A DNA stretch of 64,000 bases from Mailhella massiliensis (GCF_900155525.1 NZ_LT706942.1:112553-176552); one strand, 5' to 3'; positions 53,846-63,822 are shown, counted from the first letter of the stretch. Made by a program: numbers and translations. Notes: generated by a model not told the origin, from the letters alone.

Positions 53846-56749
53846 ATGAACAGCCATGGATTCCTCCTTGTCAGAGAAGAGAAGATGCACGAAGTGGGCG
53901 GCGTCGTCCGCCTCTGGAAGCACGAGGTCACCGGGGCCGAGCTGCTTTCCGTCTGCAACGACGACGAAAACAAGTCCTTCGGCGTAAGCTTCCGCACGCC
54001 CCCCAGGGATTCCACGGGCGTAGCCCACATCCTTGAGCATTCCGTGCTCTGCGGCTCCGACAGGTATCCGGTGAAGGAACCCTTTGTGGAACTGCTGAAA
54101 AGCTCCCTTCAGACCTTCCTGAACGCGCTTACCTTCCCCGACAAGACCTGCTACCCCGTGGCGAGCTGCAACCTTCAGGATTTCTACAACCTGATCGACG
54201 TGTATCTCGACGCCGTCTTTCATCCCCGCATCGATGAAAACGTGCTCCGCCAGGAAGGCTGGCACATCGAGACCGATTCTCCCGACGGTGTCTGGCAGTT
54301 CAAGGGCGTGGTGTTCAATGAAATGAAGGGCGTGTATTCCTCGCCCGATTCCGTGCTCATGGAAGAATGCCAGCACGCCGTTTTCCCCGACATGCTCTAC
54401 AGTCTGGATTCCGGCGGCGATCCTGCCGTGATTCCCACCCTCACCTTCGAGGCCTTCCGGGAATTTCACGCCGCCTACTACCATCCTTCCAACGCGCGCT
54501 TCTTCTTCTGGGGGGACGATGCGGAAGAGGAACGCCTTGCCCGCATCGCCGGTGTGCTCGCTCCCTATGAACGGCGCGAGGTGTCTTCCGAAGTGCCGCT
54601 GCAGGCGCGTCTTTCCACGCCGCGCCTGCTGGAGATTCCCTATGCCGCTTCGGAAGGAGAGGAGGCCGACAGGGCTCATGTGGCCGTGAACTGGCTGCTG
54701 TGCGAATCGAAGGACACCGAGGAAATGTTCGTGCTGAACATGCTGGAGCACATCATTTCCGCGCTTCCCGGTTCCCCCCTGCGCAAGGCGCTCATGGATT
54801 CCGGCCTCGGCGAGGACATTTCCGGCTGCGGCCTTGAGGGCGACCTGCGTCAGGCCTACTTCTCCATGGGGCTGCGCTCCATTGATGCGAAGGACGCCCC
54901 CGAGGTGGAACGCATCATGATGGAAACTCTGGCGGACCTTGCGGAGAACGGCGTCCCCGCTCCGGCTGTGGAAGCGGCCCTCAATTCTCTGGAATTCATG
55001 CTGCGTGAAAACAATACCGGTTCCTTCCCCCGCGGACTTGCGGCCATGTTCCGCAGTCTGTCCGACTGGCTGTACGACGGCGACGCCTTTGCGCCCCTTG
55101 CCTGGGAAAAGCCTCTTGCCTCCATCAAGAAGCGTCTTGCCGGGAGCGAGCCCGTGTTTGAGAACGCCATACGCCGCTGGTTCCTCGACAATACGCACCG
55201 CGTCACCGTGCTGCTCACCCCGGACGTTTCCCTTGCCGCAGCCCGTCAGGCTGCGGAAGACGCGAAGCTGGAAGAGCTGCGCAGGGGCATGAGCGAAGAG
55301 GAACGTGCGAAGGTGGCGGATATTGCGCAGGCGCTTCGCGCCGCGCAGCAGACGCCCGATTCCGAGGAGGCGCTGAACACGGTGCCGAGCCTCGGCAAGG
55401 AGGATCTGCCGAAGAACAACGCCGTCATTCCCTGCGAGGTGGAGAGCTGCGGCACGCTTGACGTGGTGACCCATGCGCTCCACACCACGGGCATTCTTTA
55501 TGCGCGGCTCGCCTTCGATCTTGCCGCCGTGCCCTCGCGCCTTCTGCCTCTGGTGCCGCTGTACGCCCGCGCGCTGACGGAACTCGGCACGAAGCGCCGC
55601 GACTATGTGGATCTCGGCTTTGAAATTTCCGCCCATACCGGCAGTCTGGGGGCCGGAGCCGTGGTGCTTCCGCGCGCCGCCGACGCCTCCGTGGTCTCCT
55701 TCCTTTCCGTATCCGGCAAATGCACGGCGGACAAGGTGGAGCGCATGGCCGCTCTCATGGAGGAAATTCTTTCCGAGCCTGATTTCGACAACCGCGAACG
55801 CTTCACGCAGATGGCCCTTGAGGAAAAGGCCCGCATGGAGCAGGCCGCCGTGCCCTCCGGGCATGTTCTGGTGAACACCCGTCTGAACGGCCGCCTTTCG
55901 ACCGTGGGCCGCATTTCCGAGGAAATGAACGGCGTGAACGCGTTCTTTTATGTGCGCGACCTCATCCGCAGGCTGGAAGAAGACTGGGAGAGCGTGCGTG
56001 CCGATCTTGCGGAGCTGCACGGGCGCATCGTGCGCCGTGAGGGCGTGAAGCTCGACATGACGGCGGACGGGGCGCTGCTTGCCGGTGCGCGCGGCGTGCT
56101 GGAGAAGCTGGCGCGGAATCTGCCTTCCCGCCCCGCGGAGCGCTGCGCGGTGGAGCTTGCGGAACTTCCCGGAGCCGAACTTCTGAGCATCCCGGCGCAG
56201 GTGAACTATGTGGGCCTCGGCCTTTCCCTGAAGGGGACGGGGTACCGTTACAGCGGTTCGCAGGCGGTGATTCTGCGTCATCTGCGCATGGGGTATTTGT
56301 GGGACCGCGTGCGTGTGCAGGGCGGGGCCTACGGGTGCTTTGCCCGGTACGGCCGCTCCACCGGGGCCTTCACCTTCGCTTCCTACCGTGACCCCAATGT
56401 GGCGAATACCCTCAGGGTGTACCGGGAAACGGCGGACTACCTCGGCAACCTTTCCCTTTCCGAGGCGGACATCACCCGTGCGGTGGTGGGCGCCATAGGC
56501 GATGTGGATTCCTACATGCTTCCCGGCGCGAAGGGTTCCGCGGCGTTTTCCCGCTGGATGGCGGGAGAATCCGAAGAGGAACGTCAGCGCATCCGCGAGG
56601 AAATTCTCGCCACGCGTCTTGCCGATTTCCATGATTTCGCGCCCTATCTTGCTTCCGCGCTGGAAAAGGCCGTGCCCTGCGTGCTGGGCGGCAGTGATGC
56701 CGAGGCCGTGGCGGACGCCGAGGGCTGGACGAAAACGCGGATTCTGTAG
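53846..56749 (+). CDS. M16C-family zinc metalloprotease (presequence-protease type)
   Basis: A 967-residue peptidase of the insulinase/PreP branch, which degrades unstructured peptides inside a closed chamber. The inverted zinc motif HILEH is at 61-65, and the downstream glutamate probably lies in FNEMKGVYSSPDS. The M16 domain pairs and the M16C-associated region are all present at the usual length. There is no signal peptide, so it is probably cytosolic. GGAAACAAC precedes the ATG at 53846. The TPR gene follows 20 bp after it. Confidence 0.93.
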   Translation: MNSHGFLLVREEKMHEVGGVVRLWKHEVTGAELLSVCNDDENKSFGVSFRTPPRDSTGVAHILEHSVLCGSDRYPVKEPFVELLKSSLQTFLNALTFPDKTCYPVASCNLQDFYNLIDVYLDAVFHPRIDENVLRQEGWHIETDSPDGVWQFKGVVFNEMKGVYSSPDSVLMEECQHAVFPDMLYSLDSGGDPAVIPTLTFEAFREFHAAYYHPSNARFFFWGDDAEEERLARIAGVLAPYERREVSSEVPLQARLSTPRLLEIPYAASEGEEADRAHVAVNWLLCESKDTEEMFVLNMLEHIISALPGSPLRKALMDSGLGEDISGCGLEGDLRQAYFSMGLRSIDAKDAPEVERIMMETLADLAENGVPAPAVEAALNSLEFMLRENNTGSFPRGLAAMFRSLSDWLYDGDAFAPLAWEKPLASIKKRLAGSEPVFENAIRRWFLDNTHRVTVLLTPDVSLAAARQAAEDAKLEELRRGMSEEERAKVADIAQALRAAQQTPDSEEALNTVPSLGKEDLPKNNAVIPCEVESCGTLDVVTHALHTTGILYARLAFDLAAVPSRLLPLVPLYARALTELGTKRRDYVDLGFEISAHTGSLGAGAVVLPRAADASVVSFLSVSGKCTADKVERMAALMEEILSEPDFDNRERFTQMALEEKARMEQAAVPSGHVLVNTRLNGRLSTVGRISEEMNGVNAFFYVRDLIRRLEEDWESVRADLAELHGRIVRREGVKLDMTADGALLAGARGVLEKLARNLPSRPAERCAVELAELPGAELLSIPAQVNYVGLGLSLKGTGYRYSGSQAVILRHLRMGYLWDRVRVQGGAYGCFARYGRSTGAFTFASYRDPNVANTLRVYRETADYLGNLSLSEADITRAVVGAIGDVDSYMLPGAKGSAAFSRWMAGESEEERQRIREEILATRLADFHDFAPYLASALEKAVPCVLGGSDAEAVADAEGWTKTRIL

Positions 56750-56769: not shown

Positions 56770-57597
56770 ATGAAGAATGAAAAGACCCGCGGCGTCATGC
56801 TGACCAGTTCCGCCGTGATACTGGGCCTTGCCGCCTTTGCCGCCGGTTTCGTATGCGGAAATCTGACGGCGGAATACAAGGATGCGGGGCGGGGCGTGCA
56901 GGTTCCCGTCGTCGCTTCTCCCGCAGTCGCTCCGGCAGCCGACGCGGCGGGGGACGAACATATACGGCACCTTCGGGAAGAGGCCATGGCGGAACCCGGC
57001 GATGCCGGACGCTGGACGAAGCTCGGCAACGCCTGCTTTGATGCGGGCGATGCCGAAGGCGCCATAGAAGCCTATCAGGCCTCCCTGCGGCTGGAACCCG
57101 GCAATGCCGACGTGCGCACGGATATGGGTTCCATGTACCGCTTGAAGGGCGAACCTCTGCGCGCCGTGGAAAGCTACGAACAGGCTCTGCGCGACATGCC
57201 CGGGCATAAGAACGCCGTGTTCAACAAGGGCGTGACGCTGCTGCTCGACCTGGAAAAGCCGGAAGAGGCCGTGGCCTTCTGGAATGCCGTACTTGCGGAA
57301 AATCCCGACTTCACCCTGTCCAGCGGCGAACCTCTGAAAAAGGTCATGCCCGCGCTTGCGGTGGATGCCGGGCTTCAGCTTGAAGCGCATGACCGGAAGG
57401 AAACGGCGCTGCGCGCCTATGCCGAGGCTCTGAAACTCGACGCCTCCTTCGCTCCCGCGCTCGTACACCGCGCGTGGCTGCTGGAGAACATGGGCCGCGC
57501 TTCCGAGGCCCTGCCTCTGTGGAAGCGCGTACTGGAGCTTCATCCCGACGCCACCGACCCTGCGGGCAGGCCTGTCCGCGACCGCATCAAGAAGTAA
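56770..57597 (+). CDS. Membrane-anchored TPR protein
   Basis: A 275-residue protein with one N-terminal hydrophobic helix (about residues 11-31), an Ala/Pro-rich linker, and tandem tetratricopeptide repeats from about residue 65 onward. The repeats are clear in WTKLGNACFDAGDAEGAIEA and VRTDMGSMYRLKGEPLRAVE. The TPR part most likely faces the periplasm and binds protein partners. GGGAG precedes the start. Only 15 bases separate it from the kinase-like gene, so the two are very likely co-expressed. No specific function can be named. Confidence 0.87.
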   Translation: MKNEKTRGVMLTSSAVILGLAAFAAGFVCGNLTAEYKDAGRGVQVPVVASPAVAPAADAAGDEHIRHLREEAMAEPGDAGRWTKLGNACFDAGDAEGAIEAYQASLRLEPGNADVRTDMGSMYRLKGEPLRAVESYEQALRDMPGHKNAVFNKGVTLLLDLEKPEEAVAFWNAVLAENPDFTLSSGEPLKKVMPALAVDAGLQLEAHDRKETALRAYAEALKLDASFAPALVHRAWLLENMGRASEALPLWKRVLELHPDATDPAGRPVRDRIKK

Positions 57598-57612
57598 TCA
57601 TACGGGATTGTC

Positions 57613-60600
57613 ATGTTTCCGTTTTCTTTTTCCCTGTTTCGCATGACGGCGGTGCTTCTGGCGCTTCTCTGGATGCCTGCGCCCCTTCATGCCGGGCCGG
57701 AAGAGGCGGCGGTGCTTGTGGCCGAGCCCGCTCCCGCCGTGGCCCTTCCCGAAGAAGTGCTCATCCGGGCGGATGTACAGCCTGCGCCGCCTCCCCCGCA
57801 GGAGAAGCGCTCCACGGCCTCGCGTCTGCCCGTGCTTTCCCTCCTTTCCATGCTGCCGGACGGAAAGGGTGCTCTGAGCGTGGAGGAGGCTTCCGACAGA
57901 ATCCAGGAATTCACGCCTTATCATGTCGGTCCTCTGTCGCGCGAAACGGGTACGCTCTGGCTGCATCTCGATCTTGCCGACGTGCGGGACGAAGCGCCGC
58001 ATACGCTGTGGCTGGATCTCGGTACGCAGGCGCCTTCCGGCGTATCGGTATGGCTTTCCTCCGACGGCAGAAACTGGAACGGCGCCCGGGCAGAAACGAC
58101 GGGTGTGTATGAACTGACTTCTGCCGGAAGGCGGGGGCAGGTGCTCATACGCATGGACGGTCTGCCGGGCCTGTGGTTCCGCCCCGCGCTCTGTTCGCTG
58201 CCGGTGGTCATGCACTCTCCCGAAAGGCTGGCGCATGTCGTTTCCCTGGCATCGCTGGGACTTCTCGGCGCGCTCTGCCTGCTGCTCAGCCTCACCGAGC
58301 GCGGAGAAGGCAGATTCTGGACGGCGGTTCTCGCCTTTGCGGCTCTGGTACAGGGCCTCTGGGGCATTCCTTCCGCTTCTGCGGGAACCATGGGCGCAAC
58401 TTCCTTTGCGGGCATGTTCGCAGCGGGAGTGGCGCTCTTCATGATGCCCCATGCGGGCAGAGTGCTCATGCGCACGCGCCTTGCCTCGCCTTTCGTGGAT
58501 GTACTGTATCTTGTCTTCGCCCTGCCCGGAGCCTGCGCCGCCATCGTGCCGCTTCTGCCCGGCATGGCATGGACGGCAAGGCTGCTTTCCCTGTGGCCGC
58601 TGGCCGCGCTTCTTTACTTCGTGCCTGCGCTGCTGCTTGCTCTGCGCGGCGTGCAGGGAGGCGTGCCCTTCCTTTTCTCCTGCCTCTTCATGGGCGGCGG
58701 AGCCGCCGTTTCCCTGTGGGGCGTGGCGCACGGGCTGGAAAGTCCGTGGTGGGGCGTGAGCGTGCTGGCCGGGCAGGTCATCGGACTGCTCTTTCTTTCG
58801 TCCGCCGCGCCGCATAAGGAAGCCCTTGCCGGCGCGTCGTCTTCGGAACTCGACATTGCGGAACGTCGACTGCCGGAAGTCAGGGCCAATACCTATAGGG
58901 ACAACAGCCTTGCGGCGCTGCGTCGTGCCTTCCGCGGAACGGTGGAGGAGCTCTTCGACGAGGCCTGCCGTCTGGATCAGGCGCTTACCAGGGCCGGAGT
59001 GGACAGAGAGAAGGTGGACATCATGACCCATGCCGACGGCATGGTGGCCGCCGCGCGCAGACTTTCCGAAAGTGCGCTCGACCTGCCCGCCGCAGCCATG
59101 CTGCCCGAAGCCTCCATGCAGGTGTTCGAGCTGCGTCAGGTCATACGGAAGGCCTTTGCTTCGGTGGCGGACGAGGCGGAAAAGAAGGGGCTCGGCCTTG
59201 CCTGGTATGTGGCTCCCCAGCTGGGGCAGAAGTTCCGGGGCGATGCCGCCCGCCTCACCGCGCTGCTTTCCCTGCTGCTCGCCGATTCCGTGCGTGCCGC
59301 CTTCAGGGGAGCGGTGAGTCTGCATGTGCGCCGCTCCGGCGCGAGTACCCATCCGGGGCATCTGCAGTTCACGGTGTCCGACAACGGAGAGGGACTTCCT
59401 CCGCGGGGCAGGCAGAGTATGCTTATTTCCCGCGCATGGGAACTTGCCGCCGCCCACGGGGGAGATCTGTTCATCGACAGCACTCCGCAGGGCATGGAGC
59501 TTACCTTCAGCATGGAATGCGCGGCCATGGAGGCCGACGGAGTGACGGAAAAATCCGTACCTTCCGCGGAAGGCGCGGAAGCGCCCCGGCCGGAGGCTCC
59601 GCTCGTCATTCTTGCTTCTCCCGACGGGCTGAGCCGTCAGATGTATGCCCATTATCTGGAGGACATGGGCTTCTGCCTGTGGGAAGCGCGCGATGCGGAG
59701 GAGGCGGCGTCGCTGTACGCCTCGGCTCCCGCCGCGCTGGTGGTGTTCGACGGCAATCTCGGCGAAGAGGACATGGTGCAGGCTCTTGCGGCCATACGCA
59801 TGTTCGAGGGAGAGCAGGCCCTCTCCGCCGCGCCCTTCCTGCTTCTTGCCCGCGATGACATGCAGGCGGAACGCATCGCCAAGGCCGGCTGCGACGAGGC
59901 CCTTATTCTGCCCGTGGTGCGCAGGGATCTGCGCGCCATGGCGAGATGGCTCATTTCCCCGACGCCGGAGAGACCCGTACTGAGCGCGGACCGCATTACT
60001 CTGGCAGCCGTTCTGGCCGGAGCCCATTCCGGCAATGCGCGTATGCAGCGCAAAGCCGTGCGCAAGGCGGAACCTGCGCCGAAGCCCGCTTCCTCTCCCG
60101 AAATGGCGGCGGAGCCGCAGAACGCCGCAGCAAAGCCGGAGGAAGCCGCCGCTGCTGCCGCGGCGGAGCAGGGCGCGCTTTCGCTGCAGGGAGAGGGGTC
60201 CCGGGAAAGAAAGGGCGGAACGTGGCTTTCCTCGCTGTTCCATTCCCATACCCGCCCTGCGGAGACGCAGGAGCGCGCAAAAGACGCTGCGGACGGCGCG
60301 GAGCCGGAAGAGAACGCCGTGGCCGTCCCTGCGGCGGACACAGCGCGCGGGACGCCGGAAGAGGAAGTGGTGGATCTTCTCGCCGAAGAGGTGCTGGTGG
60401 AGGAGAGCGGCGTACAGGAACTGACCAGCGACGATCTTGCTCCGGCCGTGGAGAAGAGCGTTTCCTCCCCGGAGGACGGAGAGGAGGAGCTCATAGAACT
60501 GGATGTTTCCCTCATCCATGAGGAAGGAACGCCCGTATCTTCCTCACCGGAGGAGCCTGCCGCTCCCGGGCGGGAGGCGGAAGAGGTTCTGGAGGAGATG

Positions 60601-60846
60601 GAATCGCCTTCGGGACGGATCGTGGAAGGACTGAACCGTATTTCCGAGGCGCTCATTCACGGCGACGTGCAGGCCATACGGGCCGGTTCGCGCGAGCTTT
60701 CCGCCACGGCGGACAGGTACGGGATGCATACGCTGGCCGACATGGCCCGCTGTTTCCGGGCCGCATGGGAGGAGGGCGATGTGGAGGCCGCCGCGCAGAT
60801 CGTGGAGGAAATGCGCGCCGAAGCCGCGCGTCTGCAACGGCCGTAA
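57613..60846 (+). CDS. Degenerate hybrid-histidine-kinase-like membrane protein
   Basis: A 1077-residue protein: signal peptide (1-27), a periplasmic domain (about 85-200) and a seven-helix membrane region (205-395) like 7TMR-DISM sensors. A kinase-like ATPase region (430-635), a receiver-like domain (662-780), a low-complexity linker (about 810-1000) and an HPt-like helical end follow. Signaling residues look lost. There is no HE[LI]RTPL-type H-box. The N-box Asn position reads Asp (LLLADSV). The G1 DNGEG (590-594) remains but the G2 glycines are gone. The receiver keeps an Asp (LVVFDGN) but has Leu at the switch Lys (LILPV). The HPt His is absent (SRELSATADRYG). It may be a pseudokinase scaffold; this is inferred from motifs by eye. 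Confidence 0.8.
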   Translation: MFPFSFSLFRMTAVLLALLWMPAPLHAGPEEAAVLVAEPAPAVALPEEVLIRADVQPAPPPPQEKRSTASRLPVLSLLSMLPDGKGALSVEEASDRIQEFTPYHVGPLSRETGTLWLHLDLADVRDEAPHTLWLDLGTQAPSGVSVWLSSDGRNWNGARAETTGVYELTSAGRRGQVLIRMDGLPGLWFRPALCSLPVVMHSPERLAHVVSLASLGLLGALCLLLSLTERGEGRFWTAVLAFAALVQGLWGIPSASAGTMGATSFAGMFAAGVALFMMPHAGRVLMRTRLASPFVDVLYLVFALPGACAAIVPLLPGMAWTARLLSLWPLAALLYFVPALLLALRGVQGGVPFLFSCLFMGGGAAVSLWGVAHGLESPWWGVSVLAGQVIGLLFLSSAAPHKEALAGASSSELDIAERRLPEVRANTYRDNSLAALRRAFRGTVEELFDEACRLDQALTRAGVDREKVDIMTHADGMVAAARRLSESALDLPAAAMLPEASMQVFELRQVIRKAFASVADEAEKKGLGLAWYVAPQLGQKFRGDAARLTALLSLLLADSVRAAFRGAVSLHVRRSGASTHPGHLQFTVSDNGEGLPPRGRQSMLISRAWELAAAHGGDLFIDSTPQGMELTFSMECAAMEADGVTEKSVPSAEGAEAPRPEAPLVILASPDGLSRQMYAHYLEDMGFCLWEARDAEEAASLYASAPAALVVFDGNLGEEDMVQALAAIRMFEGEQALSAAPFLLLARDDMQAERIAKAGCDEALILPVVRRDLRAMARWLISPTPERPVLSADRITLAAVLAGAHSGNARMQRKAVRKAEPAPKPASSPEMAAEPQNAAAKPEEAAAAAAAEQGALSLQGEGSRERKGGTWLSSLFHSHTRPAETQERAKDAADGAEPEENAVAVPAADTARGTPEEEVVDLLAEEVLVEESGVQELTSDDLAPAVEKSVSSPEDGEEELIELDVSLIHEEGTPVSSSPEEPAAPGREAEEVLEEMESPSGRIVEGLNRISEALIHGDVQAIRAGSRELSATADRYGMHTLADMARCFRAAWEEGDVEAAAQIVEEMRAEAARLQRP

Positions 60847-60946: not shown

Positions 60947-61009
60947 CATATGTCTTCGTTTAAAAGTTTCCTCTTCTGCGTGAAGAGAGTTTTTTGCGTA
61001 AGGGAATAC

Positions 61010-61038
61010 TTGCAACTTTGCTGGAAAGTTTTTATGAT
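61010..61038 (+). promoter_or_regulatory. Predicted sigma70 promoter of the UspA gene
   Basis: TTGCAA (61010-61015), exactly 17-bp spacer, TATGAT (61033-61038), with about 45 nt of leader before the start. Confidence 0.7.
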
Positions 61039-61091: not shown

Positions 61092-61565
61092 ATGCCCAAG
61101 CTGCAGAAGATCATATGCGCGTTGGACCTTTCCGAGCACAGCAAGACGGTTGCGGAATATGCATGTATGCTGGCCAAGGCCATGAATGCCAGCATCGTGG
61201 CCGTATACGCGGCCCCTACGCTGACTCAGTACACGGGCTTCCACGTCCCGCCGAATACCATTGACAGCTTTGTGGGTGAAATTGTCTCCGGCGCGGAAAA
61301 GGCCATGGCCCAGTTCGTGTCCGAAAACTTCGAAGGCGTGGAAACCAAGGCCGAAGTGGTCGTCGGTTATGCCGCCGAGGAAATTCTTGAAATCGCGGCC
61401 AAGGAAGAGGCCGACCTCATCGTCATGGGCACCCATGGCCGCAAGGGCATCGACCGCATCCTGTTCGGCTCCGTGGCGGAACGGGTCGTCAAGAATTCCC
61501 ATCTCCCCGTCCTGACCATTCGTCCTTCCGACAATTATACGGGCGGCGCGATCTATAAGGATTAA
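61092..61565 (+). CDS. Universal stress protein, UspA family
   Basis: A 157-residue cytosolic stress protein. The fold is typical: IICALDLSEHSKTVAEYA at the N-terminus and VVVGYAAEEILEIAAKEEADLIVMG in the second half. The ATP-binding pattern G-x2-G-x9-G(S) is complete (GTHGRKGIDRILFGSVAERV), so it should belong to the ATP-binding branch. GAGGAGG lies five to eleven bases before the ATG. It stands alone with its own promoter and terminator. Confidence 0.94.
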   Translation: MPKLQKIICALDLSEHSKTVAEYACMLAKAMNASIVAVYAAPTLTQYTGFHVPPNTIDSFVGEIVSGAEKAMAQFVSENFEGVETKAEVVVGYAAEEILEIAAKEEADLIVMGTHGRKGIDRILFGSVAERVVKNSHLPVLTIRPSDNYTGGAIYKD

Positions 61566-61661: not shown

Positions 61662-62780
61662 ATGAATCTCCCCTTTACCTCGTTCAACGACGTCCGCCCC
61701 GAGGTGGCGTCCTTCGAATCCTACGAACCCGGCCTCAGCATTGCCGAAATAGCCGGGCGTTACGGGCTTTCCCGAGTCATCAAAATGGCCAGCAACGAGA
61801 ATCCGCTGGGCGTTTCTCCCCGGGTGCGGGAGGTTCTGGAAAAGAACATAGGGCAGGCCTTCCGTTATCCGCAGTCGGGCAATCCGCGTCTGGTGAAGGC
61901 GCTCGCCGCCTTTTACGGGGTGGATGCGGGGCGCGTGTTCGTGGGCAACGGTTCCGATGAGATCATCGATCTTCTTTTCCGGGTGCGCGCCATACCGGGC
62001 GTACACAACGCCGTCGCCTTCCGTCCCTGCTTCGGTCTGTACCCCACTCAGGCGAAGATGGCGGGCGTGGAACTGCGCCAGGCTCCCTTGAAGCCCGATT
62101 TCTCCTTCGATTTCCCCGGCCTTCTGAAGCTGGTGGACGAAAACACCACCCTTGTCATCGTCACATCGCCGGACAATCCTTCCGGCCGGGCCGCCTCGGC
62201 TGACGAGCTGGCCGCTCTGGCGAAGGCGCTTCCGCCCGCCTGCCTTCTGGTGGTGGACGAGGCCTATATCGAATTCGCCGGGCCGGAACATTCCCTGCTG
62301 CCGCGCCTCGGCGAACTGCCCAACGTGGCGCTCATGCGTACCTTTTCCAAGGTGTACGGCCTTGCGGGTATGCGCATAGGCTACGCCATCCTTCCTCCGG
62401 CCATAGCCGACTACATGTGGCGCGTACGCCTGCCGTTTTCGCTCAATATTCTGGCCGAGGAAGCGGCGCTGGCCGCTCTTGAGGATGCCGGGTTCCGGGA
62501 AGACACCATCGCTCTTGTGCAGCGCGGCCGCAGGGCGCTCACCGACGGGCTGCGCTCCATGGGCTGCGAAGTGTTGCCCAGCATGTCGAACTTCCTCATG
62601 TTCCGTACGCCGGAAGGCACGGCGGACGTGAAGACCCTGCACGGCGAACTGCTGCGCCGGGGCATCATCATCCGCGCGCTGGGCGGCTATCATCTGCCGG
62701 ACTGGCTGCGCGTGAGCGTGGGCACCGATGAGGAAAACGAACTCTTCCTGCGCCATGTGCGTGAAATTCTGGGGGCCTGA
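61662..62780 (+). CDS. hisC: Histidinol-phosphate aminotransferase
   Basis: A PLP enzyme of histidine synthesis converting imidazole-acetol phosphate and glutamate to histidinol phosphate. The 372-residue product has MASNENPLG, VGNGSDEIIDLL, SPDNPSGR, VVDEAYIEFAG and the PLP lysine in RTFSKVYGLAGMRIGY. AAGGTG lies upstream of the ATG at 61662. cmk begins one base after its stop. The same family includes tyrosine/phenylalanine aminotransferases, but the motifs fit HisC best. Confidence 0.92.
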   Translation: MNLPFTSFNDVRPEVASFESYEPGLSIAEIAGRYGLSRVIKMASNENPLGVSPRVREVLEKNIGQAFRYPQSGNPRLVKALAAFYGVDAGRVFVGNGSDEIIDLLFRVRAIPGVHNAVAFRPCFGLYPTQAKMAGVELRQAPLKPDFSFDFPGLLKLVDENTTLVIVTSPDNPSGRAASADELAALAKALPPACLLVVDEAYIEFAGPEHSLLPRLGELPNVALMRTFSKVYGLAGMRIGYAILPPAIADYMWRVRLPFSLNILAEEAALAALEDAGFREDTIALVQRGRRALTDGLRSMGCEVLPSMSNFLMFRTPEGTADVKTLHGELLRRGIIIRALGGYHLPDWLRVSVGTDEENELFLRHVREILGA

Positions 62781-62781
62781 T

Positions 62782-63822
62782 ATGACAGACGATGTTTACG
62801 GCGTCATTACCATGGACGGCCCCGCAGGCGTGGGCAAGAGCACGCTGGCCCGCCGCCTTGCTGCGGAACTGGGCATAGCCTACCTCGATACGGGCGCCAT
62901 GTACCGCACCCTCGGGCTGCGCCTCGGCGCGGCTTCCGCCGATATGGAGGAAGCGGTCCTGCGCGCCCGCTGCCGGGAATACCGTTTCAGTCTGGAAACG
63001 CCGGAAGGGGGGGGCGCTCCGCAGCTCTGCTGCAACGGCGTGCCCGTAGGCGCGGAGATCCGCACGGAAAAGGCCGGGCGTCTGGCTTCTCTCGTGGCGC
63101 GGCTGCCGGTGCTCCGGGAAGAGCTTCAGCGCGCGCAGCGCGAGATGGGGGAGGACAGCTCCCTTGTGGCCGAAGGCCGCGACATGGGCACCAAGGTTTT
63201 TCCTGCGGCAAGGCACAAGTTCTTTCTCGACGCGAGACCGGAAGTGCGTGCCCGCCGCCGCTATCTGGAGCTCGAGGCCCGCGGCGCGCTGAACGGCGAA
63301 ACGCTGGAAGGCATACAGCGGGGCATTGAGGAGCGCGACGCGCAGGACAGGGGCAGGGCCGTGGACCCGCTGCGTCCTGCGGAGGACGCCGTCATCGTGG
63401 ATACGTCCGATCTGGATCTGGAAGGCGTGCTTCGCGTGCTTCTCGACGCCGTGAACACGAAGCAGGCGCAGTCTCCCTCCGGGAAGGGCGCGCATGTCCA
63501 TGCCTGCGTGCGCATGGTGCTTTCCCCCGAGGCCTGCCTTATGCTGCGGGACGAGGCGAAACGGGCGGAACTTTTCACCCTTGCCCGTGAAGCAGGGTTC
63601 AAAGCCGCAGCGGCCGTTTCCGCTTCCCCCCGAGGCGCGGAGCTTTCCTGCTTCGTGAATGAGGAAGGGATGTTCGTGGCCGTGGCCGAGGCGGAAGAAG
63701 GGCCTCATGCTAGGCTGTACGCCCTTGCCGCTGCGCAGGCCGCAGCGGCGGCTCTTGCCGGAGAACTGCCGGAAGAGTCCGTGGCCATCGAGGCCTGTCT
63801 CGAGCACCGGAAGGAAGGCTGA
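62782..63822 (+). CDS. cmk: Cytidylate kinase with an extra C-terminal domain
   Basis: Phosphorylates CMP and dCMP using ATP. Residues 1-228 are a full Cmk: P-loop GPAGVGKST (13-21), YLDTGAMYRT, the RLASLVARLPVLREEL segment, VAEGRDMGTKVFP and the late RDAQDRGRAVDPLRPAEDA. Residues 229-346 (63466-63819) are an added region: a basic linker, a predicted alpha/beta part (HVHACVRMVLSPEACLMLRD...ELSCFVNEEGMFVAVAEAEEG) and an Ala-rich helix. I recognise no family there. The start at 62782 comes one base after hisC. Confidence 0.88.
   Translation: MTDDVYGVITMDGPAGVGKSTLARRLAAELGIAYLDTGAMYRTLGLRLGAASADMEEAVLRARCREYRFSLETPEGGGAPQLCCNGVPVGAEIRTEKAGRLASLVARLPVLREELQRAQREMGEDSSLVAEGRDMGTKVFPAARHKFFLDARPEVRARRRYLELEARGALNGETLEGIQRGIEERDAQDRGRAVDPLRPAEDAVIVDTSDLDLEGVLRVLLDAVNTKQAQSPSGKGAHVHACVRMVLSPEACLMLRDEAKRAELFTLAREAGFKAAAAVSASPRGAELSCFVNEEGMFVAVAEAEEGPHARLYALAAAQAAAAALAGELPEESVAIEACLEHRKEG

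Follow-up and report, generated by a model that had tools for sequence, protein, structure and literature searches.

A TPR protein and a hybrid histidine kinase damaged at each step of its phosphorelay in Mailhella massiliensis and its relatives

Results and Discussion

A receptor or scaffold built from a former kinase

The 64,000-nucleotide stretch of Mailhella massiliensis DNA analyzed here (GCF_900155525.1 NZ_LT706942.1:112553-176552; hereafter, the window) encodes a membrane-anchored protein with tetratricopeptide repeats (TPR; 275 aa) and, after a gap of 15 nt, a hybrid histidine kinase homolog (HK; 1077 aa) in which every step of the phosphorelay is damaged. Both open reading frames, with gene starts called mechanically, lie where the original prediction, made from the sequence of the window alone, had placed them (Table 1). 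We propose, with a probability of roughly two in three (0.68), that the HK, a hybrid kinase of the 7TMR-DISM type that lost its phosphoryl chemistry at each step, now acts with the TPR protein as a phosphorylation-independent transmembrane receptor or scaffold. In the family of proteins to which this HK belongs, found in sulfate-reducing gut bacteria related to Mailhella and Desulfovibrio, strong selection coincides with damaged phosphate-handling steps and, in nearly all cases, an adjacent helper gene, which together suggest that these proteins act through binding rather than phosphorylation.

Loss of the phosphorelay residues

Each loss was checked by alignment against canonical and intact relatives. 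In the dimerization and histidine phosphotransfer (DHp) domain, the phospho-acceptor His of the H box is replaced by R438 and the following acidic residue by A439. In the catalytic and ATP-binding (CA) domain, the N-box Asn is replaced by D558 and the G2 glycines by S602 and L604, and the ATP lid is deleted; these features of catalytic HisKA-type kinases are absent from the HK. The receiver has S669 and P670 in place of the acidic pair and L766 in place of the Lys and, although Asp713 is present, does not have the makeup of a phosphorylatable receiver. The histidine phosphotransfer (HPt) domain carries R1027 and S1030 instead of the active-site His and Lys, and this His is missing in every aligned relative, including those of the sister genus (g22) discussed below. 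The original prediction had named the H-box His, N-box Asn, G2 box, receiver Lys and HPt His as lost, and the alignments bear out the entire list. Its broader claim of loss at every step holds in that each step is damaged, the receiver acidic pair being an additional casualty, but does not extend to the G1 motif (D590, G592, and G594) and Asp713, which survive. The pattern of degenerate residues is far from chance, as judged from the orthologs in the same genus and from the low dN/dS of the degenerate domains, both described below.

The alignments were also searched for an overlooked phospho-acceptor His, and none was found. Two candidates were rejected. H474, in the segment MTHADGM, falls within DHp helix 2, and most Desulfovibrio homologs have Tyr at this position; the His in YGMHTLADMARC sits where HPt helix 3 starts, and most homologs have Arg there.

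Domain architecture of the HK

An AlphaFold2 (AF2) model built with 37 family members, the confidence of which says nothing on function, predicts with high confidence that the fold of the HK is intact. Together with the profile searches, the model supports the predicted succession of sensor, seven-helix, ATPase-like, receiver-like and HPt-like parts. A DISMED2-type periplasmic domain followed by seven helices, the combination that defines 7TMR-DISM receptors, emerges from the model and from the Pfam matches of the relatives. Specifically, PF07696 (7TMR-DISMED2) scores above the cut-off in three relatives (L047, with 32.3 bits vs. a cut-off of 22, L051, and L058), and PF07695 (7TMR-DISM_7TM) matches relatives weakly (13–25 bits, cut-off 29). 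In the Pfam search of the HK of the window itself, the periplasmic part remained without a match, and a PDB search with the periplasmic/7TM profile retrieved nothing relevant.

The cytoplasmic domains are recognizable despite sub-threshold Pfam scores (25.1 bits for HATPase_c, just below the cut-off of 26.4, and 14.5 bits for Response_reg) that result from their degeneration. The pseudo-CA domain matches the ETR1 catalytic domain (VIA Z 19.0, root-mean-square deviation (rmsd) 2.3 over 137 residues), which, along with the HATPase_c score, identifies a Bergerat-type fold, and the pseudo-receiver matches the YycF receiver (VIA Z 17.8, rmsd 1.7 over 118 residues). More generally, Foldseek and VIA group the parts of the HK with ShkA, RetS, GacS, and DivL, in addition to the ETR1 catalytic domain and to YycF and other receivers. 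A profile built from the DHp-CA block has matches to RetS (3e-17), GacS (2e-17), and DivL (1e-9).

Modeled separately, the C-terminal region forms a four-helix bundle (predicted local distance difference test (pLDDT) score 87.4) that matches the YojN/RcsD HPt domain with a VIA Z of 12.9; designed bundles score nearly as high, and fold matches for helical bundles of this kind are supportive rather than decisive. Against PDB sequences, the C-terminal profile found mostly designed bundles, with only weak HPt matches. Across 297 genomes, however, this profile aligns with genuine HPt proteins containing the AHxLKG motif (E down to 1e-11), so that the last domain of the HK is a true, four-helix HPt homolog.

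Selection on the damaged domains

The ratios of nonsynonymous to synonymous substitution (dN/dS) were estimated from pairwise, simple Nei-Gojobori counts between the window and its relative L031 (83% identical). The lowest values in the HK are those of the damaged domains (DHp, 0.044; CA, 0.069; receiver, 0.065; HPt, 0.068), compared with 0.15 for the seven transmembrane helices, 0.17 for the DISM domain and 0.39, the highest value, for the linker; among the neighboring genes, the ratio is 0.105 for HisC, 0.114 for the M16 peptidase and 0.19 for the TPR gene. Three further relatives, for which the estimates are rougher given that synonymous sites approach saturation, show the same trend (HPt, 0.06–0.17; receiver, 0.07–0.17). 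Moreover, the motifs that replaced the catalytic ones are themselves conserved: three residues (W531, W609, and G627) do not vary among 37 members with identity down to 23%, and R600 and E610 hardly do. The selection for a non-catalytic role that had been predicted is thus well supported by the low dN/dS, the new invariant residues and the single-copy conservation throughout the family; dN/dS and conservation also rule out a pseudogene or a sequencing artifact.

The TPR partner

The TPR gene is located directly upstream of the HK gene in 61 of the 68 non-redundant loci with enough sequence (four further loci lie at contig ends), which substantiates the pairing noticed in the window, whose genome has no other copy of the TPR gene. 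The outer neighbors vary: Mailhella has the M16 peptidase gene, Desulfovibrio has ccmEFABC-TPR, g22 and two other genera (g39 and g12) have a TetR gene on the 3′ side, and both Mailhella and Desulfovibrio have a universal stress protein (Usp) gene on that side; no constant outer neighbor of the pair was found across the loci. Because the TPR gene stays while its surroundings change, it is the specific partner of the HK gene. The TPR protein contains residues that are invariant across 30 orthologs. Its N-terminus is short and basic and is followed by one membrane helix, suggesting an N-in topology with the TPRs in the periplasm.

Several loci show features of their own. In one Desulfovibrio clade (L081, L085, and L109), the TPR gene upstream of the HK is replaced by a conserved, unrelated gene for a small protein that, by eye, looks Nudix-like, and in one Desulfovibrio (L096:6788-7765), the TPR gene segment upstream of the HK gene is present in two tandem copies. 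The TetR-family regulator gene found 3′ of the HK in several genera (L055, L049, L113, L114, L120, and L131) is strongly conserved. In a Desulfovibrio-type ccm operon (L079:1527-7793), two distinct TPR genes come after ccmE-F-A-B-C, and the last of them is the ortholog of the window TPR gene. A Mailhella ccm operon (L112:4008-10607, minus strand) contains a 191-aa TPR gene and mnmE after ccmC, and the pseudokinase is absent.

Distribution of the family and the order of loss

Orthologs of the HK were detected in 17 of 19 genomes of the same genus and, using the profile of the C-terminal domain (E below 1e-12), as a single copy in ~14 genera of one family; no case outside this family was seen among the 297 sampled genomes of the class. 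The frame is open in nearly all relatives, most of which are metagenome-assembled. The losses are not particular to the genome of the window: they are common to most of the family and occurred stepwise.

Among 60 aligned ingroup proteins, only L055, from g22, keeps the H box. Eight more members of g22 have an intact H box (SHDLRTPL or SHDLQSPL), N box (GNA), and G2 box (GLGL); a further member, L118, is without the H/N/G2 region and is not counted among these eight. The receiver is intact in four g22 proteins (L055 and L113-L115) but not in five others, and the HPt His is present in none. The sister genus carries the same TPR neighbor as the degenerate members. In a FastTree phylogeny of the trimmed alignment with canonical hybrid kinases as the outgroup, L055 appears to branch first. 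Given the intact kinase boxes, the shared TPR neighbor and the apparently basal position of L055, the pairing probably arose before the kinase was dismantled. In the simplest scenario, which the tree and the alignments support, the HPt His would have been lost first, followed by the receiver or the kinase depending on the lineage, with the TPR gene paired throughout.

Weighing the possible functions

In our best reading, the HK and its TPR partner would constitute a receptor or scaffold functionally similar to RetS or DivL and dismantled more completely. Two more specific versions of this function, control of another kinase and a role in cytochrome c maturation, are in competition and are discussed below. 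The periplasm-facing TPR protein would bind a client, either a peptide or a protein, and present it to the HK at its periplasmic domain. Through the seven helices, a change in conformation would then reach the DHp-CA-receiver block, which, with the tethered C-terminal bundle, would bind cytoplasmic partners via conserved surfaces. Three observations weigh against this proposal: the N-box Asn persists in L043 and L109; some binding of nucleotide or phosphate may continue, because G1 and Asp713 survive in Mailhella; and seven loci, namely the divergent L052, L057, L059, and L060 and the L081/L085/L109 clade, have no detectable adjacent TPR gene. A less likely alternative is that the HK regulates another kinase in the manner of RetS or DivL, with the pseudo-DHp/CA domains tuning an active kinase by binding either to it or to its response regulator, such that phosphorylation is performed by another protein. 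The profile matches to RetS, GacS, and DivL, the 11 HisKA domains above the cut-off in this genome and an HPt that stands alone close to two large HisKA proteins are all compatible with such a role, as are the precedents of RetS, which by one mechanism inhibits GacS autophosphorylation (PMC5992135), and DivL, which works without kinase activity (PMC4211667). However, no candidate target adjoins the pair in any context, and the conserved partner is a TPR protein, neither a kinase nor a regulator. Residual or new chemistry, whereby the altered CA domain or receiver binds a nucleotide or a phospho-donor as a non-standard enzyme, seems very unlikely: D590 and G592 of the G1 motif are indeed invariant in the 37 aligned members and almost every Mailhella member retains Asp713, but the N-box Asn, ATP lid and G2 are gone, the acidic pair of the receiver is lost, and most Desulfovibrio members have Gln, His, Ser, or Ala in place of Asp713. 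Damage to every catalytic motif could also signify a gene decaying toward loss, a scenario that we consider extremely improbable because it is contradicted by the low dN/dS of the damaged domains (0.04–0.07), as well as by the open frame in nearly all relatives and the single-copy presence in ~14 genera.

A role in cytochrome c maturation, in which the TPR protein would chaperone apocytochromes in the manner of CcmI, with the pseudokinase serving it as a scaffold or sensor in the membrane, is suggested by the gene order ccmE-F-A-B-C-TPR-TPR-HK in Desulfovibrio, where the pair often closes the operon, and by the score of the Desulfovibrio TPR protein (L079) with the Pfam family TPR_CcmH_CycH (50.8 bits, above the cut-off of 42). 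Furthermore, Desulfovibrio employs System I*, which lacks CcmH and CcmG and in which CcmI enhances maturation and is not required (PMC3601427). This role is nonetheless rather doubtful, because the ccm operon of Mailhella lies at another site, where a separate TPR gene follows ccmC. Furthermore, among the examined genera that do not belong to the Desulfovibrio/g4 lineage, none was found to have ccm genes beside the pair, so that the linkage arose in one lineage. Still less likely, in our estimate, is the more specific possibility of a phosphate-free transmembrane relay in sulfate reducers, in which every transfer site of a complete hybrid phosphorelay architecture was lost stepwise while the fold and the partner were retained by strong selection, and the resulting receptor or scaffold would join a periplasmic TPR chaperone in monitoring or assembling the maturation of c-type cytochromes. 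Thus, the phosphorylation-independent receptor or scaffold outlined above remains our favored interpretation.

The locus and its neighborhood

Table 1. Coordinates of the TPR-HK pair, the HK domains and the flanking genes in the window.
Feature	Position (nt)	Strand	Remarks
M16C/PreP-type peptidase gene	53846..56749	+	20 nt 5′ of the TPR gene
TPR partner	56770..57597	+	N-terminal membrane helix (~nt 56803-56871), then TPR repeats; Pfam TPR_2, E 2.6e-21
Phosphotransfer-dead hybrid histidine kinase	57613..60846	+	1077 aa
Periplasmic 7TMR-DISMED2-like domain	57820..58212	+	Residues ~70-200, after a putative signal peptide; AF2 pLDDT mostly 82-97
Seven transmembrane helices, 7TMR-DISM_7TM-like	58219..58803	+	Residues 203-397; seven long helices predicted (AF2)
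Pseudo-DHp	58891..59079	+	Residues 427-489; two helices; R438 at the phospho-acceptor position
Pseudo-CA	59119..59517	+	Residues 503-635; alpha/beta; retains G1 but not the N box, ATP lid, or G2
Pseudo-receiver	59602..59955	+	Residues 664-781; retains Asp713 but neither the acidic pair nor the Lys
Linker, predicted to be disordered	59998..60600	+	Residues ~796-996 (~200 residues); pLDDT ~30
Pseudo-HPt four-helix bundle	60607..60837	+	Residues 999-1075; R1027 replaces His
Usp gene	61092..61565	+	Recurrent 3′ neighbor in Mailhella and Desulfovibrio

The peptidase gene is probably the first gene of the operon in Mailhella and is not a conserved partner outside this genus. Between the HK and Usp genes, there are a terminator-like hairpin (60971-60987) and a promoter-like site (61010-61038), and the Usp gene probably has a transcript of its own. 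A minus-strand open frame of 973 aa (57598-60519), antisense to the HK gene, is best explained as a side effect of GC-rich codon usage. Farther downstream, a cytidylate kinase gene (62728-63822) encodes a C-terminal extension of ~120 residues that matches no Pfam family. Elsewhere in the same genome (L133, G000:C21:25000-41000), a stand-alone gene for a 120-aa HPt protein lies within ~5 kb of two HisKA genes (877 and 936 aa), with which it possibly forms a multikinase cluster.

Comparison with known systems

No published account of this HK family was found in the open-access literature searched. The 7TMR-DISM hybrid kinase RetS of Pseudomonas aeruginosa has the same DISM/7TM sensor layout and a related DHp-CA block (E 3e-17, VIA Z ~18). 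Unlike RetS, the HK of the window has lost the H box, the N box, the lid, G2, the acidic pair and Lys of the receiver, and the HPt His, and it possesses an HPt-like domain and a paired TPR protein. RcsD/YojN, the best, if far below the cut-off, NCBIfam match of the HK (1.2e-9), is similar to it in the fold of the HPt domain and is likewise a hybrid-like protein without the kinase His. RcsD, however, acts through an active HPt His, whereas R1027 occupies this position in the HK of the window and none of the aligned relatives has the His. The TPR partner resembles the CcmI/CcmH TPR proteins in its TPR_CcmH_CycH score (38.2 bits in the window, short of the cut-off that the Desulfovibrio ortholog exceeds) and in the ccm linkage in Desulfovibrio, and differs from them in having one membrane helix, a position outside the ccm operon in Mailhella and a pseudokinase partner.

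A further parallel is DivL of Caulobacter, a pseudo-histidine kinase that has no phospho-acceptor His and has been reported to keep the H, N, G1, F, and G2 boxes apart from the change of His to Tyr (PMC4211667). The HK of the window shares with DivL, which has PAS sensors, the missing His and a profile match, and differs in that nearly all motifs as well as the receiver and HPt domains are dead. Thus, while DivL, the best-studied pseudo-histidine kinase, reportedly lost little beyond the phospho-acceptor His, the family described here lost far more, with the HPt site missing in all aligned relatives and the receiver and kinase sites lost in different lineages. Combined with a sister genus in which an intact kinase module has the same TPR neighbor, these proteins provide a natural before-and-after series that allows one to ask what a sensor kinase does once phosphate transfer is removed.

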